The translations under genes and the position numbers were made by a program. Under the pieces are notes generated by a model. It searched no databases and was not told where the DNA came from. It worked only from the letters and a program-made list of their open reading frames with translations. Source: a virus. From it: 22,645 nt of DNA. The stretch lies in the IMG/VR virus record IMGVR_UViG_3300024255_003004, positions 1-22,645 of that record, one strand, 5' to 3'. Every line of letters begins with the position of its first letter. Within the stretch, counting starts at the first letter, position 1. Below, piece by piece: positions 2,148 through 19,624 of this stretch.

Positions 2148-3014
2148 ATGTTTGAACTACAAAAAGAACACCTGGCACAATTAATTCCAGGGAACGATAA
2201 CGTTGACGGATGGCATGAAGCTCTTGTAGCAATTATGCCTAAGTATGGTATTAACACAGTAAGACGTGCCGCACACTTTATTAGTCAGTGCGCACATGAA
2301 TCTAACAACTTCCGTAGTTTACAAGAAAATTTAAACTATAGTGAAAAAGCACTTAACGCAGTCTTTGGCAGATACTTTGGTCCAGCACCAAAACGTAATG
2401 CGGCAGAATATGCACGTAACCCAGAGATGATTGCTAACTATGTTTATCAAGACGAGTTTCGTAAATATAAAATGGGCAACGTTAACGAAGGTGACGGTTG
2501 GTTATTTAGAGGACGTGGACTAAAGCAATTAACAGGACGTGAAAACTATACACGTTTTGGCGCAACAGTAGACATGACAGCAGAACAAGCGGCTGAATAT
2601 GTTGCTACTGAAAAGGGTGCTGTTGAATCAGCATGTTGGTTCTGGGACGCAAATAATTTAAATTCTATTGCAGACACAGATGACGTTGTAAAAATGACTA
2701 AGAAAATTAACGGTGGTAACATCGGACTTGAGTCACGTCAGAAGCGTTATACAAAAGCAATGGAAGTATTTGGTAGCCCAGTAACACTTGCAGACGATGC
2801 AGGTGATGATGATTTTGATATCGATGATATTGGAGTACTACGCAAAGGTTGCAGAGGCGAAGGTGTACAAATGATGCAAGAAGCATTAGGCATTGGCGCA
2901 GATGGAATTTTTGGTCCAGGTACAGAACGCAAATTAAAAGAGTGGCAAGCAAGTAAAGGCTTAACAGCAGACGGAATAGCCGGACCTGCTACACTCGGAG
3001 AGTTACTAGGCTAA
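2148..3014 (+). CDS. endolysin: GH19 glycoside hydrolase with peptidoglycan-binding domain
   Basis: This 288-residue protein is predicted to cut the peptidoglycan glycan strand during lysis. The N-terminal GH19 (chitinase-like) domain covers about residues 1-212. AHES (Glu51) fits the catalytic acid, and GDGWLFRGRGLKQLTGRENY (115-134) is a typical GH19 signature. An acidic linker (about 215-230, ADDAGDDDFDIDD) leads to a C-terminal PG_binding_1 domain (about 231-288) with the usual GADGIFGPGT and TADGIAGPAT repeats. There is no signal peptide, so it would need a holin to reach the wall. It is followed nine bases later by the spanin pair, which makes this a lysis cassette. Confidence 0.92.
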   Translation: MFELQKEHLAQLIPGNDNVDGWHEALVAIMPKYGINTVRRAAHFISQCAHESNNFRSLQENLNYSEKALNAVFGRYFGPAPKRNAAEYARNPEMIANYVYQDEFRKYKMGNVNEGDGWLFRGRGLKQLTGRENYTRFGATVDMTAEQAAEYVATEKGAVESACWFWDANNLNSIADTDDVVKMTKKINGGNIGLESRQKRYTKAMEVFGSPVTLADDAGDDDFDIDDIGVLRKGCRGEGVQMMQEALGIGADGIFGPGTERKLKEWQASKGLTADGIAGPATLGELLG

Positions 3015-3022
3015 TTACAATT

Positions 3023-3508
3023 ATGTTTAGTTCAATTAAAATTGCTATGATAGTCGTTGCCCTTGCTACAGCAGGCGGCGGCTTTCTACATTACAAAAAT
3101 GTTAAAGCAGACTTAGAAACAGCTAAAGCAAATAATATATTACTAGAGGCGTCCATTGATGGACAGAAGGCTGTAATTGCACAGCAGGCTAATGATTTTA
3201 AATCAATACTAGCCGCTAACGAAAAACTACAAGCACAAAACAAAGTTTTATCAAACGAGTTTAAAGCACTAGATGAACGCTTTAATAAAATCAACGGTCA
3301 AGGCGAAGTACGTGATATAGGTAAACTTGCTGTTGAGCGTAGTAGCTCAGTTGAACGTGTTATTAATGGTGCTACCAAAAAAGCAATGAGATGTGTAGAA
3401 ATTGCAATGGGTGCGCCGCTAACGGAGAAAGAGATTAATGCAACTAAGAAATCACAGATCAATTCTGAGTGTCCTAGCATTGCTAACCCTAACTACATTC
3501 CTTACTAG
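3023..3508 (+). CDS. i-spanin (Rz-like inner membrane spanin subunit)
   Basis: The 161-residue protein has one N-terminal membrane segment (about residues 4-22) followed by a long Gln/Lys/Glu/Ala-rich region (about 28-95) predicted to be coiled coil, then a periplasmic tail ending in NPNYIPY. This is the architecture of an i-spanin, which joins an outer-membrane lipoprotein to fuse the inner and outer membranes at the last step of lysis. The identification rests on architecture and context: it lies directly after the endolysin, and a lipoprotein gene starts inside its 3' end in the +1 frame. Spanins diverge too far for residue motifs to help. Confidence 0.82.
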   Translation: MFSSIKIAMIVVALATAGGGFLHYKNVKADLETAKANNILLEASIDGQKAVIAQQANDFKSILAANEKLQAQNKVLSNEFKALDERFNKINGQGEVRDIGKLAVERSSSVERVINGATKKAMRCVEIAMGAPLTEKEINATKKSQINSECPSIANPNYIPY

Positions 3509-3830
3509 TTGTAGTACGGTACAAAAGTTAGATGTGTTTGCTACTGAAGTAGAAAGAGCACCTTTAAATCTACCCAATCCTGACACACCTAAACTAGAAG
3601 AACTTAGATGGACTATCATTACTAGCGAAAACGCACAAGAAGTATTTGCTAAAATGCAAGAGCAAGGTAAAGACCCTGTACTGTTTGGTTTAAGTGATGA
3701 TGACTATGAGTTGTTATCTAAGAACTTTGCACAGATACGTGCTTACATGATACAACAAGGTTTAACACTTGAACAGTATCGTGAATATTATGAACCAAAA
3801 GAAGAAACAGGAAAGGAAAATGCCAATTAA
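3438..3830 (+). CDS. o-spanin-like outer membrane lipoprotein
   Basis: The 130-residue protein starts with a charged N-region (MQLRNHR), a hydrophobic stretch and a lipobox LTSC (22-25), so Cys25 would be lipidated and the mature protein would have about 106 residues. The mature part begins with a Pro-rich stretch (LNLPNPDTPK), as is common in o-spanins. The ATG has a GGAG about ten bases upstream. The first 71 bases overlap the i-spanin in another frame, and the signal peptide is encoded by the i-spanin's C-terminal codons. This overlapping layout is typical of Rz/Rz1 pairs, although the mature part is longer than Rz1 of lambda. Confidence 0.82.
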   Translation: MQLRNHRSILSVLALLTLTTFLTSCSTVQKLDVFATEVERAPLNLPNPDTPKLEELRWTIITSENAQEVFAKMQEQGKDPVLFGLSDDDYELLSKNFAQIRAYMIQQGLTLEQYREYYEPKEETGKENAN

Positions 3831-4002
3831 ATTTAGGCCTAGCCAGAAGGTAAGAGATAAAAACTCTGGCAAATACATTACAACACACTTTTATATTAAA
3901 AGTACACCAACAACTGAGTTACAAGAATTTTTAGAAAATCATAACTCACGTCCCAAGCACAAAGTTAAAGTAAAGAAAGAATTAACACGTAGAGGCTTAT
4001 AA
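3820..4002 (+). CDS. small basic protein, unidentified
   Basis: The likely start is the ATG at 3820, preceded by AGGAAA, giving 60 residues that begin MPIKFRPSQKVRDKNSGKYI. The same frame is open back to 3769, but that ATG has no ribosome site and would add codons wholly inside the o-spanin gene. The protein is strongly basic (many Lys and Arg) with no membrane segment, and ends KKELTRRGL. The motif pattern resembles a short protein that I believe recurs in marine T4-like phages, but no function is known to me. It overlaps the o-spanin stop by a few bases and ends at the ATG of the next gene. Confidence 0.75.
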   Translation: MPIKFRPSQKVRDKNSGKYITTHFYIKSTPTTELQEFLENHNSRPKHKVKVKKELTRRGL

Positions 4003-5571: not shown

Positions 5572-5601
5572 GTCAATAATTATATTGCATAGTGGCCTGT
5601 G

Positions 5602-5609
5602 CGATAAGT
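5602..5609 (+). promoter_or_regulatory. variant late-type box GATAAGTA
   Basis: GATAAGTA differs from GATAAATA by one base and lies six bases before the dnaJ ATG at 5616. The geometry is close to the late boxes before 9817 and 14019. It is a weak call because the box is imperfect. Confidence 0.25.
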
Positions 5610-5615
5610 AATAGT

Positions 5616-6416
5616 ATGGACCACTATAACACTCTTGGCGTTACAAAAACTGCCTCTCAAGCAGATATTAAAAAAGCCTACCGAAAACTCGCAATGAAAA
5701 ATCACCCCGATCGCGGAGGTGATGAATCTAACTTTCAAAAAATATCAGAAGCATATGATACACTTAGTGACCCAACTAAAAGGTCACAGTACGATAACCC
5801 AACACCGCAATTTAGATTTGACACTGGTGGGTTCCGTAGTAACCAAAATCCTTTTGAAGACTTTATGAGAGGATTTTCTCCGGGACAAAGAAAGAACAGA
5901 GACGTAACGATTAACCTTACGCTTAGTTTGCAAGACGTACTATCAGGTAAGTCATTAGCAACAAGGTATAAGATACAAAGTGGCAGAGTTAAAGAAGCTG
6001 ATATTGAAATACCAGCAGGTGTTGCACATGGCGTAAATATACGCTTTCGTGACCTAGGTGATGATAGTAACACGTATTTGCCATCAGGAGATCTAATTGT
6101 AAAAATTAGTGTAGTAGAACATCCATTATGGAAGCGTGAAGGTAATAACTTAGTAATAACTTTACTATGCTCAGTATTTGATTTATTATTGGGCGGAGAA
6201 GCTAAGTTTAAAACTTTAGATGGTAAAGACTTATCAGTAAAGATACCTAAAGGCACACAACCAACTGCTAAATTTGCAATTCCTAATTACGGTATACCTA
6301 ATGTTAAAGACGGACACAGAGGTAATATAATTGTTAAACTAAACCCTGCAATACCAAATATTGAGAATGAAGGTATTGTACAAGAGTTGGAGAGGATAAA
6401 AGATGCACTTAATTAA
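5616..6416 (+). CDS. dnaJ: DnaJ-like co-chaperone (J-domain protein)
   Basis: The 266-residue protein starts with a J domain (residues 2 to about 66) with the HPD motif at 30-32, which would stimulate host DnaK. A short Gly/Phe/Asn-rich linker (TGGFRSNQNPFEDF) leads into a DnaJ C-terminal substrate-binding region (about 95-255). The Cys-rich zinc finger of type I DnaJ is absent, so this is a type II form. The frame is open from a GTG at 5592, but the ATG at 5616 gives the usual MDHYNTLGV start. No Shine-Dalgarno is visible. The gene overlaps the deformylase gene by 14 bases, and the next genes also act on proteins. Confidence 0.9.
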   Translation: MDHYNTLGVTKTASQADIKKAYRKLAMKNHPDRGGDESNFQKISEAYDTLSDPTKRSQYDNPTPQFRFDTGGFRSNQNPFEDFMRGFSPGQRKNRDVTINLTLSLQDVLSGKSLATRYKIQSGRVKEADIEIPAGVAHGVNIRFRDLGDDSNTYLPSGDLIVKISVVEHPLWKREGNNLVITLLCSVFDLLLGGEAKFKTLDGKDLSVKIPKGTQPTAKFAIPNYGIPNVKDGHRGNIIVKLNPAIPNIENEGIVQELERIKDALN

Positions 6417-6915
6417 ATCACCTGACCCATGGTTACAAAAAGTCGTAGTAGACTTTGACTTTGAAAAACTAGATGCAAAAGCAATTAGTGAAAAAATGAT
6501 TGACCTTATGAAAGAAGAAGGCGGTATTGGACTTAGCGCAAATCAAGTAGGATTAGATGCTAAAATATTTGTAATGAAACCACACCTATTAGAAGATAAT
6601 AGTCCATTGGTTATTATAAACCCTACTGTTGAAAGTGCAACGGTAAACTATGAAGACTTACCAGAAGGCTGTTTAAGTCATCCAGACTTATTTCTTACTA
6701 TAAAAAGACCAAGAGGTTTGGTTGCCAAGTTTCTTGACATTGATGCAAAAGAACGTATAATAGAATTATACGACATAGATGCTAGATGTTTTTTACATGA
6801 GTTCGATCACTTACAAGGTATTGAATTTACTGATCGCATTAGTAGACTAAAATTAGATCGAGCAAAAAAGAAACGTTTAAAAGAACTTAAAAAGAGGAAA
6901 ATACAGCATGGTTGA
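6403..6915 (+). CDS. def: peptide deformylase
   Basis: This 170-residue metalloenzyme would remove formyl groups from new proteins in the cytoplasm. All three deformylase motifs are present: GIGLSANQ (41-48; the usual second-last small residue is Ser here), EGCLS (88-92, metal ligand Cys90) and HEFDH (132-136, metal ligands His132 and His136, catalytic Glu133). After the core there is a very basic C-terminal helix (about 147-170, rich in Lys and Arg). Marine phage deformylases are often shortened at this end; this one keeps a helix. The ATG has GGAGAGGA upstream and overlaps dnaJ. Confidence 0.95.
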   Translation: MHLIKSPDPWLQKVVVDFDFEKLDAKAISEKMIDLMKEEGGIGLSANQVGLDAKIFVMKPHLLEDNSPLVIINPTVESATVNYEDLPEGCLSHPDLFLTIKRPRGLVAKFLDIDAKERIIELYDIDARCFLHEFDHLQGIEFTDRISRLKLDRAKKKRLKELKKRKIQHG

Positions 6916-9160
6916 ACCGAGTAATTCATTACAGTTGGTTTTTGAGAAAAGCATTAAAGATGCTAAGAAGTTACAACACGAGTATGTAACACTAGAACAC
7001 CTAGTGTTTGCAATGCTCTGTGAGGAGAATTTTTATAACGTAGTGAAGGGCTTTGGCTCAGACGTAGACTATCTTAAAAAGAATTTAGAACATTACCTTA
7101 CTACTAAGTTAGATGATATTAAAATAGAAGAAACAAAATACAAGCCAAAGAAAACACAAACAGTAGAACGTGTTCTTAACAGAGCATTTACACAAGTGTT
7201 GTTTCAAGGCCGTCCTGAAATTGATCTTACTGATGTACTTGTTAGTACACTTGCAGAAAAGAAATCAATGGCAGTTTACTACTTAGAAGAATCAGGTATT
7301 ACTAAAGAAGCATTTGCTGAATATGTAAGTACAGAAATAACAACTACAGAAGATGACATAGCAGAAACAGGTCAAGGACAAAAAGCACTTCGAGCATTTA
7401 CAACAAACTTAAATGATGAAGTTAAGCAAAACAAAATTGATCCTGTAATTGGCAGAGCTGAAGAAATTGAAAGCATTGCTCTTTCATTAGGACGTAGACA
7501 AAAGAACAACGTACTACTAGTTGGTGATCCAGGTGTTGGTAAAACTGCTATTGCAGAAGGTCTAGCATGGAAAATTGTTAACGATCAAGTTCCAAAGTTT
7601 TTAAAAGAATACAATGTTTATAACCTTGATATTGGATCGCTACTAGCAGGTTCAAAATATAGAGGTGACTTTGAAGAACGTTTTAAACTTGTACTAGCAG
7701 GTTTAAAAGGCAAAGGCAAAACAATTATGTTTATTGACGAAGCACACATGATAAGTGGTGCAGGTGCAGGTGGCGGCAACAGTGCAAATGACCTTGCTAA
7801 TATGCTAAAGCCAGCACTAAGTAAAGGTAACATTAAAGTTGTTGCGTCAACTACTTGGGATGAATACCGCAAGTACTTTGAAAAGGATCGTGCATTGATG
7901 CGTCGATTCCAACGTGTAACAGTTGATGAGCCAACTTCAGAAGTAACAAAAGATATCTTACATGGTATTAAAAAGTACTACGAAGATTTTCACAAAACTG
8001 TAATTACTGATGATGCTATTGAAGCGGCTGTAAAACTAAGTGTGAAATATCAAGCAGACAAGAAACTACCTGATAAAGCAATTGACTTGTTAGATGTTGC
8101 ATGTGCAAGATTTAAACTAAAAGAAATACCACCTGAGCAACAAATTGTTGATGAAAGTAGTGTACAATTTGAACTTAGTAAAATGTTAAACTTGCCTGAA
8201 GAGCAAGTAGCAGAACGTGAAACAGAAAATCTTGCTAACTTAGAAAAGAATCTTAAGAGTCAAGTATACGGACAAGACGAAGCAATTGAAAGTATTGTTG
8301 ATAAAATTTTAGTTGCACAAGCAGGACTTAAACCGGAAGACAAGCCAGTAGGTTCGTTTGTGTTTATGGGTCCAACAGGTACAGGTAAAACAGAAACAGC
8401 AAAACAACTTGCATCAGCACTTGGTGTAGGACTAGTACGTTTTGATATGTCAGAGTATCAAGAGAAACATGCTGTTGCTAAACTGTTAGGTTCACCTCCA
8501 GGATATGTAGGACACGAAGAAAAAGGTGGGTTACTTATTGAGAAAATTCAAGAGAATCCTAATTGTGTATTACTACTAGATGAGATTGAAAAAGCACATC
8601 CAGACGTATCACAGATTTTATTACAAGTTATGGACAATGGTAAAGTTACAGGCTCTAATGGTAGAGAAGCAGATGCACGTAATTGTATTCTAATTCTTAC
8701 TACTAACTTAGGTGCTAAAGAAGCAGAGAAAAATACTATTGGATTTGACGAAGACTTTGATGGCGCAGGATACGAAGATAAAGAACTTAAAAAATTCTTT
8801 GCACCAGAATTTAGAAACAGACTTGATGCAACAATTACATTTGCTAAATTAGGCAAAGAGATAATGATGAAGATTGTTGGCAAGTTCCTTGTTGAACTTA
8901 AAAATATGGTTAAGGATAAGCAAGTAGATATTATTATTACTGATGAAGCATTAGATCAATTAGTTGAAAAAGGCTTTGATAGTAAGATGGGTGCAAGACC
9001 TTTACAACGAGTTATCGATAAAGAGATTAAACGTCCACTGTCAAGAGAACTATTATTTGGTAGTTTAAAAGATGGCGGCAAGGTAACTGTTGACTTTAAG
9101 GACGGCGCATTTGTTCTAGAGTCTGAAGGTCAAGTCGTTGAAGAAATTAGAGACAACTAA
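6908..9160 (+). CDS. clpA: ClpA-type AAA+ unfoldase with ClpP-docking loop
   Basis: The 750-residue protein has an N domain (about 1-145) and two AAA+ modules. Module 1 has Walker A GDPGVGKT (206-213), pore loop KYRGDF (250-255) and Walker B FIDEAH (275-280). Module 2 has Walker A GPTGTGKT (488-495), pore loop GYVG (532-535) and Walker B LLLDEI (555-560). The coiled-coil M domain of ClpB is absent, so it is ClpA-like. Residues 611-613 are IGF, at the place of the ClpA IGL loop that docks to ClpP. No clpP is present here, so it would use host ClpP. It overlaps the deformylase gene by 8 bases. Confidence 0.93.
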   Translation: MVEPSNSLQLVFEKSIKDAKKLQHEYVTLEHLVFAMLCEENFYNVVKGFGSDVDYLKKNLEHYLTTKLDDIKIEETKYKPKKTQTVERVLNRAFTQVLFQGRPEIDLTDVLVSTLAEKKSMAVYYLEESGITKEAFAEYVSTEITTTEDDIAETGQGQKALRAFTTNLNDEVKQNKIDPVIGRAEEIESIALSLGRRQKNNVLLVGDPGVGKTAIAEGLAWKIVNDQVPKFLKEYNVYNLDIGSLLAGSKYRGDFEERFKLVLAGLKGKGKTIMFIDEAHMISGAGAGGGNSANDLANMLKPALSKGNIKVVASTTWDEYRKYFEKDRALMRRFQRVTVDEPTSEVTKDILHGIKKYYEDFHKTVITDDAIEAAVKLSVKYQADKKLPDKAIDLLDVACARFKLKEIPPEQQIVDESSVQFELSKMLNLPEEQVAERETENLANLEKNLKSQVYGQDEAIESIVDKILVAQAGLKPEDKPVGSFVFMGPTGTGKTETAKQLASALGVGLVRFDMSEYQEKHAVAKLLGSPPGYVGHEEKGGLLIEKIQENPNCVLLLDEIEKAHPDVSQILLQVMDNGKVTGSNGREADARNCILILTTNLGAKEAEKNTIGFDEDFDGAGYEDKELKKFFAPEFRNRLDATITFAKLGKEIMMKIVGKFLVELKNMVKDKQVDIIITDEALDQLVEKGFDSKMGARPLQRVIDKEIKRPLSRELLFGSLKDGGKVTVDFKDGAFVLESEGQVVEEIRDN

Positions 9161-10182: not shown

Positions 10183-10779
10183 ATGGAACATTTTATTAGA
10201 GTAGTGATGGAGAAACAAGATAATTTAAACGAAAGTTTAAATGAGTCAGTATTTCCAGGAAGTGCAATTTATGAATCAGAGCAAGGTGCTAGTATATTTG
10301 AAATGCCATTACCTACAGCATTAAGCGAAGAGCAAGCAGACGAATTTGCAAACAAATTAGCAAACTTTGTTTTTGAACAAGGCTACGAAGATTTTGATAT
10401 TGAAATATCAGCAGACGGCGCTATTGATGAAGACGAAGAAACATACGAAGACGACGATGAATTTTATGAACAGTACGGTGTTATGTGGTACAATGAAGAT
10501 GATGACCCGATAGACGAAGCAGAATACCAAGGCCGTAAAGTCAAACTTGGCAAGCCTATGCAAGGTGATGTTAAGAAATTTAAAGTATACGTCAAAGATC
10601 CAAAGACAGGTAATGTTAAAAAAGTAAACTTTGGACACGGCGGTAGCAGTGTTAAAGGTAAAGCAATGAAGATTAAAAAATCTAACCCTGCACGTAGACG
10701 CTCATTTAGAGCAAGACACAATTGTGATAACCCAGGGCCACGTACTAAGGCACGTTACTGGTCTTGTAGGAAGTGGTAA
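10183..10779 (+). CDS. acidic protein with C-terminal DUF5872-like Cys/Trp domain
   Basis: The 198-residue protein has an acidic N-terminal region (about 40-115, with runs of Asp and Glu) and a basic C-terminal domain (about 117-198). The latter holds GDVKKFKVYVKDPKTGNVKK, then SNPARRRSFRARHNC and GPRTKARYWSCRKW, with Cys181 and Cys195. I recognise this domain from many marine T4-like phage proteins, where it is attached to different N-termini and may match DUF5872. Its function is unknown; virion or prohead core roles have been suggested by context. The ATG has AAGGCGG upstream. The next gene starts two bases after its stop. Confidence 0.75.
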   Translation: MEHFIRVVMEKQDNLNESLNESVFPGSAIYESEQGASIFEMPLPTALSEEQADEFANKLANFVFEQGYEDFDIEISADGAIDEDEETYEDDDEFYEQYGVMWYNEDDDPIDEAEYQGRKVKLGKPMQGDVKKFKVYVKDPKTGNVKKVNFGHGGSSVKGKAMKIKKSNPARRRSFRARHNCDNPGPRTKARYWSCRKW

Positions 10780-10780
10780 A

Positions 10781-11125
10781 ATGAAACTTAATGAAGTACA
10801 AGAAAAACAACAGGATGAAATACCATTTGATGTAGCAGAAGATCTTGCTATTTTTATGCGTAATGATCCTATGTTTTATCGTAAAACATTTTTTCCAGCT
10901 ATGGCTGATGTAAGTGATAGAATGGAAAAAGGAGACTCGATTGATCCTGCTGTAATGTTAAAACCTATAGTCGATCAAGGTGTTAAGGGCTATTGTAAAA
11001 AATATATTAAAGATAAACGTGCTGAAGATGTTTTTACCGAAAAAGATAAAAAGGCCTGTGTAGATAAAATTAGTGCAGAGGAAATGCCTAATATCAAAAA
11101 AGGTATGTATAAGGTCGAAATTTAA
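10781..11125 (+). CDS. unidentified protein with capsid-targeting-like N-terminus
   Basis: The start is the ATG at 10781, after an AGGAAG ribosome site; the upstream in-frame ATG at 10724 lies inside the previous gene and is unlikely. The 114-residue product begins MKLNEVQE, which matches the shared start of several neighbours and ends in a hydrophobic-x-Glu motif. The rest is mostly helical and contains DPMFYRKTFFPAMADVSDRM and PIVDQGVKGYCKKYI. No enzyme motif is visible. It ends in a TAATG overlap with the nucleotidyltransferase gene. Confidence 0.72.
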   Translation: MKLNEVQEKQQDEIPFDVAEDLAIFMRNDPMFYRKTFFPAMADVSDRMEKGDSIDPAVMLKPIVDQGVKGYCKKYIKDKRAEDVFTEKDKKACVDKISAEEMPNIKKGMYKVEI

Positions 11126-12288
11126 TGCTATTAAGAGAATTATATGAAGCACCAAAGAAGGTAGCAGTTGCGGCATTTGGTCGTATGAATCCGCCAACTA
11201 TTGGACACGAAAAACTTGTCAATGCTGTTAAAAAACAGCAAGGTGATCATTATATTTTTCTAAGCCAAACACAAAAACCTAAAGACAATCCTTTACCGTT
11301 TGATGTAAAATTAGAGTTTGCTAAAAAGTCTTTTCCCGGTGTTAACGTAGGACACCCTACAGTACGTACACCAATTCAAATGTTACAGATGTTAGAAAAA
11401 CTAGGTTACACAGATGTTATCTATGTAGCAGGTTCAGATCGTGTAGCAAGTTTTGATAAACTGTTTAACGACTACAACGGCAAAGAATATAACTTTGATA
11501 GTATTACTGTTGTTAATGCAGGCGAACGTGATCCAGATGCAGATGGTGCAGAAGGTATGAGCGCAAGTAAAATGCGTCAAGCGGCTGCTGAAGGCAACTT
11601 AGAAGCATTTTCACAAGGCGTACCTAAACCAGATCTAGCACAAAAAATGTATGATGCTGTACGTAAAGGTATGGGTATTAAGGACGAACAGCCTGTAGAA
11701 GAATGGGCAGTGCCTGCACTAAAGGGTGCAAAGTACGCATTTCAAATTAGTAAATGGTTATGGAATAATAAATGGGCTATTACATTCTTTATGGGTGCTT
11801 GGAAAACTATCGACTGGATTGGTGATGCTATAAACTTTGCTAAAAGATTTTTAGATCATCCGGTTGTTAAAACAATGTCTAAGTACGGGCTTCCAGCAAT
11901 AGGTATTGCTATTGCATTATACGGTGGTAAAAAACTATACGACGAACTAGTTCAAATTAAAGACGAACGTGAATTAGAAAAACTTTTAACAGAATTTAAA
12001 CCTGATATGTCTGAGTTAGAGACACTTGAGGCAGAACTAGAAGCAATGATTGCTGATGAAAAGACAGATAAAGCAGGCGCACTTGACGAAGGTGATTTAG
12101 TAGTAGATAAAGGTTCATTAGTATCATACTTACGTGATATGATACAAAAATATGTTATGGAAGAAAACGATGTTGAAAAACTTTCACAACTATTAAAATT
12201 TATGGTAGGCAAAGAAATTAAGCCTCATGGTAAACAAAGATATCGTATAACATCTGAAGATATAATTAGGGCATTGAAACGTGGATGA
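11125..12288 (+). CDS. nucleotidyltransferase fused to a membrane domain, capsid-targeting-like N-terminus
   Basis: The 387-residue protein begins MLLRELYE, resembling the T4 capsid-targeting sequence. Residues 12 to about 180 form a cytidylyltransferase-fold domain with GRMNPPTIGH (19-28, the T/HxGH nucleotide motif) and MSASKMR (145-151, the second nucleotide motif). This is closest to NMN/FMN adenylyltransferases, but the substrate is unknown. A middle region has two hydrophobic segments (about 212-232 and 253-268), and the C-terminal part is acidic and helical, ending in a basic RITSEDIIRALKRG. A membrane-inserting C-terminus on a nucleotidyltransferase is unusual. The start codon overlaps the preceding stop. 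Confidence 0.85.
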   Translation: MLLRELYEAPKKVAVAAFGRMNPPTIGHEKLVNAVKKQQGDHYIFLSQTQKPKDNPLPFDVKLEFAKKSFPGVNVGHPTVRTPIQMLQMLEKLGYTDVIYVAGSDRVASFDKLFNDYNGKEYNFDSITVVNAGERDPDADGAEGMSASKMRQAAAEGNLEAFSQGVPKPDLAQKMYDAVRKGMGIKDEQPVEEWAVPALKGAKYAFQISKWLWNNKWAITFFMGAWKTIDWIGDAINFAKRFLDHPVVKTMSKYGLPAIGIAIALYGGKKLYDELVQIKDERELEKLLTEFKPDMSELETLEAELEAMIADEKTDKAGALDEGDLVVDKGSLVSYLRDMIQKYVMEENDVEKLSQLLKFMVGKEIKPHGKQRYRITSEDIIRALKRG

Positions 12289-12508
12289 ACTGTCTGACAT
12301 CATACGTCTAGCCGGTGTAAACGAATTCAAAGGTTATACTGAATATACTTTAGAAAATATTAGTGACGCAGCAAATTCTAATGCAAAAAAAATGCGTGAT
12401 AATAATATAAAGCCTGGAGACGAGGAATGGTTTAAGTTATGGTTCAGTCAACCTAAAATGATGAATCAAAACATGCCACGAGGATTTAGAGGAAGAACAA
12501 AAAAATGA
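12281..12508 (+). CDS. small protein with WFKLWFS motif
   Basis: A GTG at 12281 starts a 75-residue protein and overlaps the nucleotidyltransferase gene by eight bases. It begins MDELSDIIRLAGV and ends with GDEEWFKLWFSQPKMMNQ and then a basic GFRGRTKK tail. The C-terminal EWFKLWFS segment and the FRGR end recall a short module that I believe is repeated in marine phage proteins. There is no membrane segment, and the function is unknown. The stop overlaps the next ATG. Confidence 0.72.
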   Translation: MDELSDIIRLAGVNEFKGYTEYTLENISDAANSNAKKMRDNNIKPGDEEWFKLWFSQPKMMNQNMPRGFRGRTKK

Positions 12509-13536
12509 GACTGCGTCAGTTATTTGAAGATGGAAGAATTGTAAAAGGTGTTAACACTACTCCTGACGTTGACGTAAATTCTATTTCTAAAGAAGCAGCA
12601 AAGTTAGGCTTTACTGTAGATAAAGACGGAGTTCCTCCTACACTAAGTAAAAAAGTAAAAGGCAAGTCAACAAATGTTGCATTTAATTTAGGTATGACTG
12701 AAGGTAACTTATTTAAGAATCCTGCAAATACATTCTTAGCAAAATCAGATACAGCATACGACTTTCTTAAAATAGGAACAAATTTAGCAAATTTAAAAGA
12801 TGTTCCAAGTAACTCTAATGTAGATGAACCAGACATTATGATTGCTCCATACGCAGGTGCTAAAGAAATGAAGTATCTTATGAAGCAACTTAATCGTATT
12901 GGGTATAAAACACAAGATGCTAGTGGCTATAAAGATGCACACTTTGACAACAAGCCAACAGGCGGTAATGCACCTCCGCAATTAAAAAAATTAGGGTCAT
13001 TAGGTAAAATTAAAATTGATAAACTTAAAAGTGTACAGAACGAAAGACAATGGCACAAACTAGGTAAGCAATTAGTTAAAGTTATTAATGATGATTATGC
13101 TCCAATACAAATTGATCGTAAAGGTAGAGTAATTAACGGTCATCACAGACTTGATGCATTACGTTTAGTAGGTGAAGAATATGCTCGTGTATATATGGCA
13201 GACGATGTAGTAGAAAACATGTTAGGCGAAACATATGCTGATGAAAAAAGAGAGAAAACAAAACGTACACTTGCTAAACACGACAAAGCAATGATCAAAG
13301 TAGCTCGTGATTCTATTAAGAAGTACGAGAAAGACAAAGAAGATAAAGAAACTAATGAAAACTTTGCCGACGGTAAAAAAAAGGGCAAAAGTAAGCCTGG
13401 TAGAGTAAAGAAGTCAGGTGCTAGTTGTAATGGCAGTGTAACAGCACTACGCAAACGTGCTAAGAACGCAAGCGGTGAGAAGGCTAAAATGTATCACTGG
13501 TGTGCTAATATGAAATCAGGTAGAAAGAAGAAGTAA
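12505..13536 (+). CDS. ParB/Srx-like domain protein with capsid-targeting-like N-terminus and Cys tail
   Basis: The 343-residue protein begins MRLRQLFE. A ParB/sulfiredoxin-type domain spans about 165-235, shown by YAPIQIDRKGRVINGHHR (198-215) and the following helix. NGHHR (211-215) is the signature nucleotide-binding or nuclease box of the superfamily. The C-terminal part (about 245-343) is very basic and includes a Cys module, KKSGASCNGSVTALRKRAKN, then MYHWCANMKSGRKKK. I believe this module recurs in marine T4-like phage proteins. DNA binding, nuclease or NTPase activity are all possible. The ATG has GAGGA upstream. It ends in a TAATG overlap. Confidence 0.82.
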   Translation: MRLRQLFEDGRIVKGVNTTPDVDVNSISKEAAKLGFTVDKDGVPPTLSKKVKGKSTNVAFNLGMTEGNLFKNPANTFLAKSDTAYDFLKIGTNLANLKDVPSNSNVDEPDIMIAPYAGAKEMKYLMKQLNRIGYKTQDASGYKDAHFDNKPTGGNAPPQLKKLGSLGKIKIDKLKSVQNERQWHKLGKQLVKVINDDYAPIQIDRKGRVINGHHRLDALRLVGEEYARVYMADDVVENMLGETYADEKREKTKRTLAKHDKAMIKVARDSIKKYEKDKEDKETNENFADGKKKGKSKPGRVKKSGASCNGSVTALRKRAKNASGEKAKMYHWCANMKSGRKKK

Positions 13537-13736
13537 TGTTCAGTAAACAATGTAAATTACATCTAGAAGAAAAAGGCGAAACAGGATGTCAGCATATGAA
13601 AGCGGCACTAAAGACAGCCGTTAGACTACAATTACTTGTACCAACACTAATAATACACAGTGTTGCGCCACGTTTTTTTACAGACACAGCAACACGAGTA
13701 ATGAAAGATATACTAGATGACAGAACAGGAACTTAA
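13536..13736 (+). CDS. small membrane protein, DUF6356-like
   Basis: The 66-residue protein begins MFSKQCKLHLEEKGETGCQH, has a hydrophobic segment around residues 26-44 (AVRLQLLVPTLIIHSVAPRF) and ends in a polar helix. The pattern H-L-E-x-x-G...H...IHxxxPxFF matches what I remember of DUF6356, a family of short phage and bacterial membrane proteins of unknown role. It starts by translational coupling to the ParB-like gene (TAATG) and overlaps the next small frame by 20 bases. Confidence 0.65.
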   Translation: MFSKQCKLHLEEKGETGCQHMKAALKTAVRLQLLVPTLIIHSVAPRFFTDTATRVMKDILDDRTGT

Positions 13737-13836
13737 ACACTACATCGAAAAGTACAAAGAACACGAAGAAAAACAGCTAAGTACTAATGAAAGAAACGAG
13801 TACTGGAGGAAATACAATGAAGATAACAGACATTGA
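13717..13836 (+). CDS. 39-residue charged peptide, tentative
   Basis: An ATG at 13717 opens a 39-residue frame (MTEQELKHYIEKYKEHEEKQ, then a Tyr/Asn/Arg-rich tail to the TGA at 13834-13836). It is highly charged and would form one helix. It fills the otherwise empty space 13737-13816 and overlaps both neighbours by 20 bases. No ribosome site is obvious, so the call rests on its protein-like composition and gene packing only. Confidence 0.4.
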   Translation: MTEQELKHYIEKYKEHEEKQLSTNERNEYWRKYNEDNRH

Positions 13837-14011
13837 TAAAGATATACTAGACGAAACTACATCAGCAGGCAGTGTTGCAGGTGTTGCTACTCCAGTAGGC
13901 GGAATGATTAGTCGTCAAATGAAAAATGCAGACGGCACTGCTAAAAATGCTCTTGACATAGATGCAAACATCTTAGGGCATAAAAAGAAGAAGAAAAAGA
14001 ACAAGCGATAA
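13817..14011 (+). CDS. small protein with poly-Lys tail
   Basis: The ATG at 13817 follows a strong GGAGGA (13805-13810). The 64-residue product starts MKITDIDKDILDETTSAGSV, has a Gly/Val/Ala-rich middle and ends in a run of Lys (HKKKKKKNKR). The N-terminus resembles that of its neighbours, and LDE at 11-13 would be a prohead-protease-type site. The basic tail suggests nucleic acid binding. The frame is open further upstream to 13787, but without a ribosome site. The stop TAA is part of the next late box. Confidence 0.68.
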   Translation: MKITDIDKDILDETTSAGSVAGVATPVGGMISRQMKNADGTAKNALDIDANILGHKKKKKKNKR

Positions 14012-14014
14012 ATA
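14007..14014 (+). promoter_or_regulatory. T4-like late promoter box GATAAATA, adjacent to the start codon
   Basis: GATAAATA contains the stop codon TAA (14009-14011) of the preceding gene and ends four bases before the ATG at 14019. As at 9804, transcription starting about six bases after the box would leave no leader. There is no Shine-Dalgarno before this ATG. Confidence 0.55.
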
Positions 14015-14018
14015 CAGT

Positions 14019-14966
14019 ATGCGTATTAAAGATATAAATGAAGGACCGTTAAAATCATTTCAGCAAAATGTTGCTAAAGGATTTCAGGCCACACAAAAAG
14101 GCGGCGGCTGGCTTGCTCCTGACGGTGTAGAAAAAGGTATTAAGAAGTTTTTTACTCAAATAGATGATCCTGATAAAGATAAAGATAAAAAAGCTGCTAA
14201 AGGCGGTGCTGGTACAAAAGACAGTGTTACTAAAGCAGACGCAAAGAAATTAAAGGGCGACGGCGAAGGCATTCTTAATCAAATGGCTGCTAAAAGAAAA
14301 TATGCTAAAGAACTAGCAGGTTATAAAAATTCAAAAGCAGATAGCACTCCTCCGCAGGATGCTAGATTAATCGGAAAAGACGGTAAATTATATCACTGGA
14401 GCGGAAATAAATGGTTAGTAAGGAATGACACTAACGGACGTTATGAAGCAACAAAAGACCAAGAGTCAATAAAAGCAAGTTGGATAGATGCCGCTTCAAA
14501 AGGTAAAACAACATATATTAAAAAGGAATCGATGATGAATAGAAAATCAATTGAGGAAGGGTTGGCCGACTTAGCTGATATGGCTGAAAGAGATCACGAA
14601 GTACAAATGGCACGTGCCGATCTATATAAGATTGCAAAGTATGCTATTCAACTGCACGACATGATGAAAAATGTTACTGAAGCAGACGGAATTGAAGGTT
14701 GGCAGCAATCTAAAATTACTAAAGCAGCAGACTATATGGGAAGTGTGTATCATGCACTAGACTATGATTTAAAGTTTGGAGAAGAAGTAACTGAAGCAAA
14801 AGATACACATTGTTCAGATAAATGTTGTGGAGCAGATGTAAAAAGAGAAGACTGTGAATGCCCACCTACTTGTAAGCATTGCAACTGCAACGAATCAGTA
14901 AATGAAACTGTCGACATGTATAAAGCAAGTATTGCTAAAAAACTAGCAGAAAAACTAGGTAGATAA
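14019..14966 (+). CDS. Cys-cluster protein with capsid-targeting-like N-terminus
   Basis: The 315-residue protein begins MRIKDINE. The N-terminal third is basic and low in complexity (DDPDKDKDKKAAKGG). A segment with KDGKLYHWSGNKWLVRND (about 124-141) looks like a small beta domain. A helical part (about 170-255) follows. Residues 265-290 hold eight Cys (265, 269, 270, 279, 281, 285, 288, 290) in 26 residues, suggesting a zinc or other metal cluster. The end is helical (YKASIAKKLAEKLGR). Function is unknown; I recall related helical and Cys segments in other marine T4-like phages. The ATG lies four bases after a late box. Confidence 0.75.
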   Translation: MRIKDINEGPLKSFQQNVAKGFQATQKGGGWLAPDGVEKGIKKFFTQIDDPDKDKDKKAAKGGAGTKDSVTKADAKKLKGDGEGILNQMAAKRKYAKELAGYKNSKADSTPPQDARLIGKDGKLYHWSGNKWLVRNDTNGRYEATKDQESIKASWIDAASKGKTTYIKKESMMNRKSIEEGLADLADMAERDHEVQMARADLYKIAKYAIQLHDMMKNVTEADGIEGWQQSKITKAADYMGSVYHALDYDLKFGEEVTEAKDTHCSDKCCGADVKREDCECPPTCKHCNCNESVNETVDMYKASIAKKLAEKLGR

Positions 14967-14967
14967 T

Positions 14968-15705
14968 ATGGATTATCACGCACTACAGAAAAAATTATTT
15001 GACATTCAGCCATCAGATCCTGCACAAGAAAAAGCAAGTATGATTGCTGCTCTACAAGGTGGTCAACCGCAAGAAAGTGTGCAAAACACAGTTTCTTTAG
15101 TGCATGAAAGTGTACAAGTACAGGAAGGTACATTGCCAATAGATAGAGATTATTCTGTAAGTGATTTTGCTGCCCTAGCTGGTGTAAAATTAACTGAAGC
15201 ACCTGTTGCTCCAGCAGTAGCACCTGATGCAAATAAAGTAGGTATGGGCGCAAAACAAGTTGGTAATAAACTTGGTGCTAAAGGTGGCGCAGGAATGATG
15301 TCTAAAGCATTGGGCAAAGTTGCACAAGGCGGTGCATTGCCAGCAAATCTTTCTAAACAGATTGCTCCATTTGCTGCTCAACTAGAAGTTATCTTAGGCG
15401 ATCCAGGACTAAGAAATAAGTTTATGGCTATTGTTAAAGCTGCTGAGGCAGTTAGTAAGAAAAATGCAGCAGTTGCTCCGGCACAGCCTGTAGAAAGAAC
15501 ACTTACTAAAAGTGAAGAAGCTAAAAAAGAAAAGAACGTCAAAGGTATGAAAAAGAACAAAGACGACTTTAAGAAGCGTTACGGTAAAGACGCAGAAGCA
15601 GTTATGTATGCAACTGCAACTAAAAATGCCAAAAAAGAATCATTTATCAAAGATGAGCTCTATCGTAGATTAGCCGAATACGAATTCAAATCTACCAAAA
15701 AGTAA
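14968..15705 (+). CDS. mosaic phage protein with C-terminal RYGKDAEAVMYATATK motif
   Basis: The 245-residue protein starts one base after the previous stop, at MDYHALQKKLFDIQPSDPAQ, a start type I believe recurs in marine T4-like phages. The middle is rich in Ala, Pro, Gly and Val (about 75-185) and likely partly disordered. The C-terminal part has KKNKDDFKKRYGKDAEAVMY and then ATATKNAKKE, a module found on many phage proteins, ending in a charged helix. No catalytic motif is visible. The stop codon sits in an inverted repeat that reaches the -35 box of the next promoter. Confidence 0.72.
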   Translation: MDYHALQKKLFDIQPSDPAQEKASMIAALQGGQPQESVQNTVSLVHESVQVQEGTLPIDRDYSVSDFAALAGVKLTEAPVAPAVAPDANKVGMGAKQVGNKLGAKGGAGMMSKALGKVAQGGALPANLSKQIAPFAAQLEVILGDPGLRNKFMAIVKAAEAVSKKNAAVAPAQPVERTLTKSEEAKKEKNVKGMKKNKDDFKKRYGKDAEAVMYATATKNAKKESFIKDELYRRLAEYEFKSTKK

Positions 15706-19213: not shown

Positions 19214-19624
19214 ATGAAAGTTGGTTTTACTTGTAGTACATTTGATTTATTGCACTCAGGACACGTACAAATGCTACGTGAAGCAAAAGATCAATGCGAT
19301 TACTTGATATGCGGATTACAAGTTGATCCTAGTGTTGACCGAAAAGATAAGAATAGTCCTATACAAACAGTAGTCGAACGATATACTCAGCTTAAAGCAG
19401 TTGGCTATGTAGATGAAATTATTCCATATGGCACTGAAGAAGATTTAGAAGATATACTTAGTATGTATTCGATAAATGTGCGTATACTAGGAGAAGAATA
19501 TAGAGATAAACCGTTTACTGGCAGAGATATTTGTCGTAAACGAGATATTGATATCTACTTTAATAATAGAGATCATCGATTTAGTTCAAGTGATTTAAGA
19601 CAAAGGGTTACAGATGCAAAATAA
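19214..19624 (+). CDS. TagD-like cytidylyltransferase
   Basis: The 136-residue protein has the full set of cytidylyltransferase motifs: GFTCSTFDLLHSGH (4-17, with HSGH at 14-17), ERY (55-57) and RFSSSDLRQR (122-131, equivalent to the STTxxxxR nucleotide motif). Length and motifs match glycerol-3-phosphate cytidylyltransferase (TagD), which makes CDP-glycerol from CTP. The true phosphoalcohol or sugar substrate in a phage is unknown. It overlaps the HAD gene by 11 bases, so the two probably act in one pathway. Fusions of related enzymes are used for cell envelope or glycan synthesis. Confidence 0.88.
   Translation: MKVGFTCSTFDLLHSGHVQMLREAKDQCDYLICGLQVDPSVDRKDKNSPIQTVVERYTQLKAVGYVDEIIPYGTEEDLEDILSMYSINVRILGEEYRDKPFTGRDICRKRDIDIYFNNRDHRFSSSDLRQRVTDAK

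Follow-up and report, generated by a model that had tools for sequence, protein, structure and literature searches.

Why do neighbouring phage genes that encode unrelated domains begin with nearly the same eight residues? The question is raised by a 22,645-base piece of DNA from an uncultured marine bacteriophage (IMG/VR record IMGVR_UViG_3300024255_003004; the window, here, is the whole of this fragment), in which the genes starting at 10781, 11125, 12505 and 14019 open with an octapeptide of the pattern M-x-[LI]-x-x-[LIV]-x-E (MKLNEVQE, MLLRELYE, MRLRQLFE and MRIKDINE, respectively) and a fifth gene, at 13817, starts MKITDIDKDILDE, with LDE at residues 11-13. A preliminary description of this DNA had listed these five starts, which on checking read as it said, and had proposed that they act as an address tag for proteins packed in the head. 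The comparisons reported below make it highly probable that the octapeptide is a shortened T4-type capsid-targeting propeptide that a prohead protease of the gp21 type removes by cutting after Glu; that such cleavage, packaging and ejection take place in this phage, like the function of the cargo, is what we infer from it.

The shared N-terminal tag

All four octapeptide genes are preceded by a Shine-Dalgarno-like sequence of 3 to 5 bases. The core of the pattern, [LIV]..[LIVMF].E, occurs 34 times among 6707 internal positions of the window proteins and at the N-terminus of 4 of the 34 called genes, a binomial p of 2.7e-5 that is indicative only because the pattern was written after these starts had been seen. 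Relatives were fetched with three window proteins (the last query contributing the best 80 of 592 matches), together with relatives of the capsid protein of G001 (best 80 of at least 600) and seven large records, G001 being a 181,934-base relative whose DNA polymerase is 85.5% identical to that of the window. Calling yielded 3814 unique proteins, comprising 462 related to the nine window cluster proteins (the cluster families) and 3352 others. At called starts the strict tag is carried by 104 of the 462 (2.2 expected) versus 13 of the 3352 (16.2 expected), which shows concentration rather than independent origins because the loci share descent and were retrieved with tagged queries. The motif is thus not equally common in other genes, a possibility that the preliminary description had raised for non-virion genes, although virion and non-virion genes are inseparable in this lineage.

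By family the tag is found in 52/65 nucleotidyltransferases, 32/91 ParB-like proteins, 9/35 SAG proteins (the 13817 type), 9/86 relatives of 14019 and 11/62 of 14968, the last arising at least partly via a C-terminal module common to tagged proteins; it is rare among relatives of 10781 (3/46), 12281 (2/51) and 10183 (1/54) and in DUF6356 proteins (0/8). The 13 tagged proteins outside the cluster families include cargo-like ones, among them a Cys-rich protein starting MKISELLE and another starting MKIRDISETTSGG, as well as one prohead protease (MKLNLLRE). A near-identical pattern, sought in the seven large relatives with alternative ATG starts accepted, was met in 0/177, 0/182, 3/170, 3/146, 2/128, 3/113 and 3/113 called genes, and 8 of these 14 genes belong to the homologous cluster, where by sequence they encode nucleotidyltransferases, ParB-like proteins or SAG proteins. 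Counted by N-terminal position over entire relatives, [LIVMF]xE showed no clear peak. A short N-terminal leader is common to nucleotidyltransferases of two kinds and to ParB-like, Cys-rich, SAG and other proteins. The families in which the tag is concentrated have, as the preliminary description had it, unrelated downstream domains. Its notion of a tag common to all members holds in part: Glu8 is conserved in the 11125, 12505 and 14019 families, whereas in the 10781 family the full tag is present in only 2/45 unique relatives.

Across 33 aligned homologues of the 11125 product, L3, L6 and E8 hardly change (each conserved in 90% or more) and the residues between them vary; all 43 unique nucleotidyltransferase leaders contain hydrophobic-x-E, with the P1 residue at position 8 in 38, at 9 in 1 and at 10 in 4. 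The 11125 product as modelled has a PPAT/NMNAT-type nucleotidylyltransferase fold, with matches to 3pxu (VIA Z 14.9, 153 aligned residues, root-mean-square deviation 2.8) and to 5ts2_A (Foldseek, E = 2.1e-5); because the structural matches to the model span residues 11-186, the tag would lie outside the fold. The product also matches the PHROG cytidyltransferase family (E = 1.4e-57) and, below the curated cut-off, Pfam PF01467 (E = 0.0091). To judge from the fold, a role in nucleotide or NAD-type metabolism is likely. The second cytidylyltransferase-like protein of the window, at 19214, provides an untagged control, as its N-terminus, MKVGFTCSTFDLL, begins directly in the domain.

Predicted protease sites at module joints

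The 14019 product consists of three modules and has hydrophobic-x-Glu at both of its joints (Table 1). Nine aligned homologues all share M1, R2, I6, E8, E180 and E259 but differ in the stretches that separate the first module from the second, and the DHEVQ and Cys modules occur alone elsewhere, each with its own tag. Against a background of 0.024 hydrophobic-x-Glu per residue in these proteins, such a site stands before the DHEVQ module in 31/32 N-terminal and 16/21 internal contexts, a few residues before the first Cys of the Cys module in 8/9 and 25/27, and immediately before the ParB module in 32/32 and 6/6. The SAG module, counted with capsid proteins and one chance match in a DNA polymerase set aside, is preceded by it in 10/10 N-terminal and 13/14 internal contexts. 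The AlphaFold model of 14019 (mean predicted local distance difference test score 45.5) is too poor to judge whether the joints are linkers. The Cys module, from its residues, likely binds metal.

The SAG module offers a link to the head protease. The maturation site in the capsid proteins of this lineage is E/SATAGATSAGNVAT (a slash marks the predicted cut), which corresponds in position to the T4 gp23 cut, FLTE at residue 65; in 66 unique capsid N-termini the residues ahead of RVILPVIRR mostly read YL[AS]E/[TS]ATAGATSAGN[VI]AT, with HLSE, YLIE and YLQE as variants before the slash. The window copy at 13817, E/TTSAGSVAGVATPVGG, is a shorter likeness of this mature N-arm. A search with the core pattern outside capsid proteins returned 27 proteins, by eye 26 with the 13817-type module and one DNA polymerase by chance. 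Two 13817-module relatives have E/SATAGATSAGNIAS, which matches capsid proteins exactly over twelve residues, and others differ by few.

Candidates for the corresponding machinery are present in the lineage. Peptidase_S77 (the gp21-type prohead protease) and the Gp23 capsid protein were each matched in 1 of 25 relative records, G001 alone in both cases, in a search in which the control genomes matched in none and the remaining records may be fragments. The G001 protein encoded between gp21 and gp23, called gp22 solely from its location, has 18 [LI]xE sites compared with 6.7 in shuffles, and in T4 gp22 there are 16 compared with 5.7, neither count being reached by any of 2000 shuffles. The lineage proteases themselves have hydrophobic-x-E within ten residues in 61/61 unique N-termini, a count that is not independent because the proteases are homologues.

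Leaders on cyanophage virion proteins

In T4, IPII and IPIII start MKTYQEFIAEA and gp24 starts MAKINELLRES, their cut positions being taken in part from PMC9026906. The likeness of the T4 Alt start (MELITELFDED), which the preliminary description had brought up, holds by eye. A search with the 11125 enzyme matched 526 cultured-phage records, and T4-type leaders are present on 8 of the 9 relatives whose N-termini were read, those of S-SM1, P-SSM7, S-SM2, ACG-2014f, S-BM3, DLP_6, S-CREM2 and, with an upstream start, S-T4. The annotated start of the S-T4 cytidyltransferase (L185), at 3833, is probably too late, as MKNFLAFITEA lies in frame upstream. The S-SM1 homologue (T4-GC190), with the leader MKKFSAFLNE, is reported in purified virions (Sullivan et al. 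2010, PMC3037559). For S-CREM2, 52 virion proteins are listed in PMC10665884, including a cytidylyltransferase, a SAM hydrolase and a kinase, and all three have T4-type leaders at their annotated starts (MKNFSSFLTE, MKRFDAFLTE and MKDFDSFLEE are the S-CREM2 leaders).

The pattern in the IPIII register is confined in S-CREM2 to detected proteins without a structural role: 4/27 non-structural detected proteins, 0/23 structural and 0/173 undetected genes (p = 2.7e-4), in a scan of 170,000 of the 174,876 bases in which ORF14 was called from an earlier GTG (it fits the pattern at the annotated GTG) and ORF174 and the capsid gene were uncalled. With annotated starts the first count becomes 5/28 (p = 3.8e-5). 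A looser test (hydrophobic-x-E with Glu at 8-13) is weaker, with 7/28 non-structural detected, 2/24 structural and 15/173 undetected (p = 0.019).

By eye, cyanophage proteins also have a stretch of about 35 residues resembling GLxxDGHGxWxDxxG after the leader, on the nucleotidyltransferase, the kinase and a 'Cas9-like' virion protein; its carriers are S-CREM2 ORF12 and ORF14 and the cytidyltransferases of S-SM1, S-SM2, S-BM3 and ACG-2014f (L176, L183, L186, L187, L268). It is perhaps a second exchangeable module. Among the 3814 marine proteins a pattern of this type was found in none.

Proposed mechanism and alternative explanations

By analogy with T4 (PMC9026906), the leader would bind the scaffold core during prohead assembly and so draw unrelated cargo into the head. 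A gp21-type protease would then remove it after Glu, at a hydrophobic-x-Glu site that is mostly followed by a small or acidic residue, as the site matches suggest. The mature nucleotidyltransferase, the ParB-like protein, the small protein resembling the capsid arm and the metal-binding modules would remain in the head with the DNA, and the cargo would probably enter the host together with it. A more tentative extension, possible rather than probable, is that the head protease processes cargo polyproteins, a single leader bringing the 14019 product into the head, where cuts at Glu8, Glu180 and Glu259 would release three cargo proteins, and that the 13817 family is a decoy or anchor derived from the mature capsid N-arm, fastening cargo inside the shell.

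The proposal of capsid targeting with prohead-protease cleavage draws its support from comparison, namely the concentration of the tag, the cyanophage virion homologues with IPIII-like leaders and the 13817 relatives that copy the capsid site. Several observations weigh against it. IPIII has targeting positions 4 and 7 and processing positions 8 and 10 (PMC9026906); the octapeptide, two residues shorter, places its hydrophobic residues at 3 and 6 and its Glu at 8 and so is out of that register, but a few nucleotidyltransferase leaders have P1 at 9 or 10. The 10781 protein is a doubtful member because so few of its unique relatives keep the full tag, and 5 of the 21 internal DHEVQ joints have no hydrophobic P3 residue. 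G001, the sole relative here with known head genes, has the strict octapeptide in 0/177 genes; its homologues start MKAKEFMSE (before TTSAG) and MKQSELLE, and it also has a leader of the ten-residue type, MKTFTQILTE. No head genes were recognised in the window, where a Peptidase_S77 search gave no match, a blank that is uninformative because the control genomes also matched nowhere. Among cyanophages, the P-HM2 cytidyltransferase has no leader, 23 of the 28 detected non-structural S-CREM2 proteins do not fit the IPIII-register pattern, that pattern was taken from the T4 literature and applied after the N-termini had been seen, and the S-CREM2 authors caution that detected virion proteins may include contaminants (PMC10665884). 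Nor is the pattern clean in S-SM1, because its matches, 3 of 223 called genes, are not only the cytidyltransferase but also gp5, the hub of the baseplate, and a frame on the opposite strand.

The gp5 match would suit a tag that serves as a virion-assembly signal for neck, tail or baseplate, its Glu site being incidental, and so would the position of a DHEVQ-domain relative between gp16 and gp17 in cyanophage S-SM2. Such a signal is nonetheless improbable, given that relatives of the 13817 module copy the maturation site of the capsid protein, that the leaders are similar to T4 head-core propeptides and that tail parts are included in the structural S-CREM2 genes, all of which are free of the pattern. 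Marginally less probable still is mosaic recombination, in which modules are swapped at a common 5' end made of the ribosome site and first codons and the peptide has no function. The genes are adjacent and the modules shuffled, as this would predict, and a nearby in-frame start with ribosome-site-like sequence accompanies 12 of the 21 DHEVQ fusions, the window (in-frame ATG 14532/14535 with AAGGA upstream, near joint 1) included; because of these 12, internal initiation could explain part of the conservation of DHEVQ joints. Yet hydrophobic-x-Glu is kept at joints that have no nearby start, in 24/24 cases for Cys, 10/11 for SAG and 4/4 for ParB, although in only 5/9 for DHEVQ, and the hydrophobic and Glu positions stay constant while the residues between them vary. 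Chance likeness of short N-termini is the least probable of all: an eight-residue pattern of loose residue classes, framed after the fact, is easily seen by eye, but the window probability and the enrichment in relatives both speak against it. For the tag set as a whole these counts refute chance; for 10781 alone it could still apply. The shortened capsid-targeting propeptide remains the preferred explanation.

Other genes of the cluster and the window

Table 1. Tagged genes of the cluster, their neighbours, predicted protease sites and the untagged control; positions are those of the window.
Feature	Position	Strand	Basis or remark
198-residue protein with RARHNC..YWSC module at the end and leader MEHFIRVVME; possible member	10183..10779	+	N-termini of relatives
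114-residue protein with tag-like MKLNEVQE; doubtful member	10781..11125	+	Tag kept in 2/45 unique relatives
Nucleotidyltransferase (modelled PPAT/NMNAT-type fold) with tag MLLRELYE (11125-11148) and helical C-terminal part	11125..12288	+	Predicted cut before APKK
75-residue protein (GTG start) with possible longer leader MDELSDIIRLAGVNE; possible member	12281..12508	+	N-termini of relatives
ParB-like protein with tag MRLRQLFE (12505-12528) and Cys-containing C-terminus	12505..13536	+	Predicted cut before DGRIVKG
66-residue untagged protein inside the cargo cluster	13536-13736		DUF6356 match, E 3.9e-8
64-residue protein with leader MKITDIDKDILDE (13817-13855), then TTSAGSVAGVATPVGG	13817..14011	+	Alternative in-frame ATG at 13787
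Three-module fusion: tag MRIKDINE (14019-14042), DHEVQ helical module, Cys (metallothionein-like) module	14019..14966	+	Alignment of homologues
Glu180, predicted protease site, internal joint 1 (SIEE/GLADLA)	14556..14558	+	DHEVQ module contexts
Glu259, predicted protease site, internal joint 2 (EVTE/AKDTHCSDKCC)	14793..14795	+	Cys module contexts
Second cytidylyltransferase-like protein, outside the cluster; untagged control	19214..19624	+	PF01467, E = 2.5e-14 from residue 6

The 12505 product has a weak PHROG ParB-like match (E = 3.7e-5, over 42 residues only) and no Pfam match; on this slender basis its cargo role is likely DNA- or nucleotide-related. Some phages have the 10781-type domain at the C-terminus of large proteins, and several of these start with a T4-like leader (MVAFKEFLFE, for instance). 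In the 12281 family hydrophobic-x-E ends at residues 10-20 in 41/50 unique relatives, and the site is mostly LAG[VI]xE before F or Y (45 shown), a bulky residue compared with the small ones elsewhere. In the 10183 family it is found at 8-12 in 30/41 unique N-terminal 14-mers, and in some phages the RARHNC..YWSC module is placed after leaders such as MTKTFKDYLKE. The RARHNC..KARYWSC ending of 10183-10779 is also present on a tagged 755-residue protein of the relative G003 (76352-78619; 88% identity over 89 residues), and a Cys motif that by eye resembles it ends the cyanophage T4-GC119 proteins. Another short module, YGKDAxxVMYATATKxAKK, is C-terminal in window 14968-15705 (residues 186-230) and recurs on unrelated proteins at loci L009, L047 and G003, among them some tagged nucleotidyltransferases and a tagged 2222-residue G003 protein.

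Phosso (49.6%) and Atu_ph07 (45.0%), both with large genomes, are examples of the cultured phages whose DNA polymerases come closest to that of the window. From 12505 onwards, nine window genes have collinear homologues in G001, whose match to 19214 sits elsewhere. Searches of the cultured-phage collection with proteins 14019, 12505 and 13787-14008 gave no match, and neither the nucleotidyltransferase domain nor the ParB-like protein had a significant hit in PDB sequence searches. A T4-like late promoter, TATAAAT, is unsupported, with 7 occurrences in the window compared with 10.25 expected. Elsewhere in the window, 2148-3830 holds an endolysin gene and, after it, a pair of small overlapping genes, of which one starts like a lipoprotein, an arrangement resembling a lysis cassette with spanins (the spanins being read by eye), and 5592-9160 encodes consecutive DnaJ-like, peptide-deformylase-like and ClpB-like proteins, as read from sequence only.

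Significance and comparison with known systems

If the octapeptide is indeed a capsid-targeting propeptide, a readable N-terminal code would show which unidentified genes of marine T4-superfamily phages are head cargo, the tag predicting enzymes that are carried in the particle and perhaps delivered into the host. It would also explain the presence of cytidylyltransferase, SAM hydrolase and kinase in cyanophage virions, for which the S-CREM2 authors left packaging versus contamination open (PMC10665884), and delivery of phage enzymes into marine bacteria would become directly testable. Among the openly accessible papers listed, no report of capsid-targeting sequences on cyanophage proteins was found, a limited statement with subscription papers outside its scope.

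T4 has known capsid-targeting sequences, and P1 and SPN3US have signals of an analogous kind (PMC9026906, PMC9024508, PMC5694885, PMC10052503). In T4 IPIII, replacing the P1 Glu by Asp prevents processing yet still allows packaging (PMC9026906). Like the propeptides of T4 IPI, IPII, IPIII and Alt and that of gp24, which gp21 cuts, the tag is N-terminal, contains hydrophobic-x-Glu and is placed on unrelated proteins, and the lineage of the window, through G001, has a gp21-type protease and a scaffold candidate rich in [LI]xE. Unlike the T4 sequence it has eight residues rather than ten, with hydrophobic residues at 3 and 6 rather than at 4, 7 and 8; it is carried by enzymes, ParB-like and Cys-rich proteins, its fused modules keep the site inside, and cleavage would here be deduced by comparison. 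The nucleotidyltransferase is homologous, leader included, to the cytidylyltransferase found with SAM hydrolase and kinase in S-SM1 and S-CREM2 virions; theirs, however, are ten-residue leaders of the T4 form on proteins reported by mass spectrometry, whereas the window protein is known from its gene. As with DarB and the other antirestriction proteins of P1, an N-terminal signal would send cargo into the head for delivery, but the P1 signal needs more than 9 and fewer than 30 residues, and BLAST is reported to show no consensus among Dar N-termini (PMC9024508). In SPN3US and phiKZ, finally, the prohead protease likewise cuts after x-Glu, and identical N-termini are described on two diverged ejection proteins; their propeptides differ from the tag in being mostly longer than 100 residues, the two short ones described having 20 and 24 (PMC5694885, PMC10052503).

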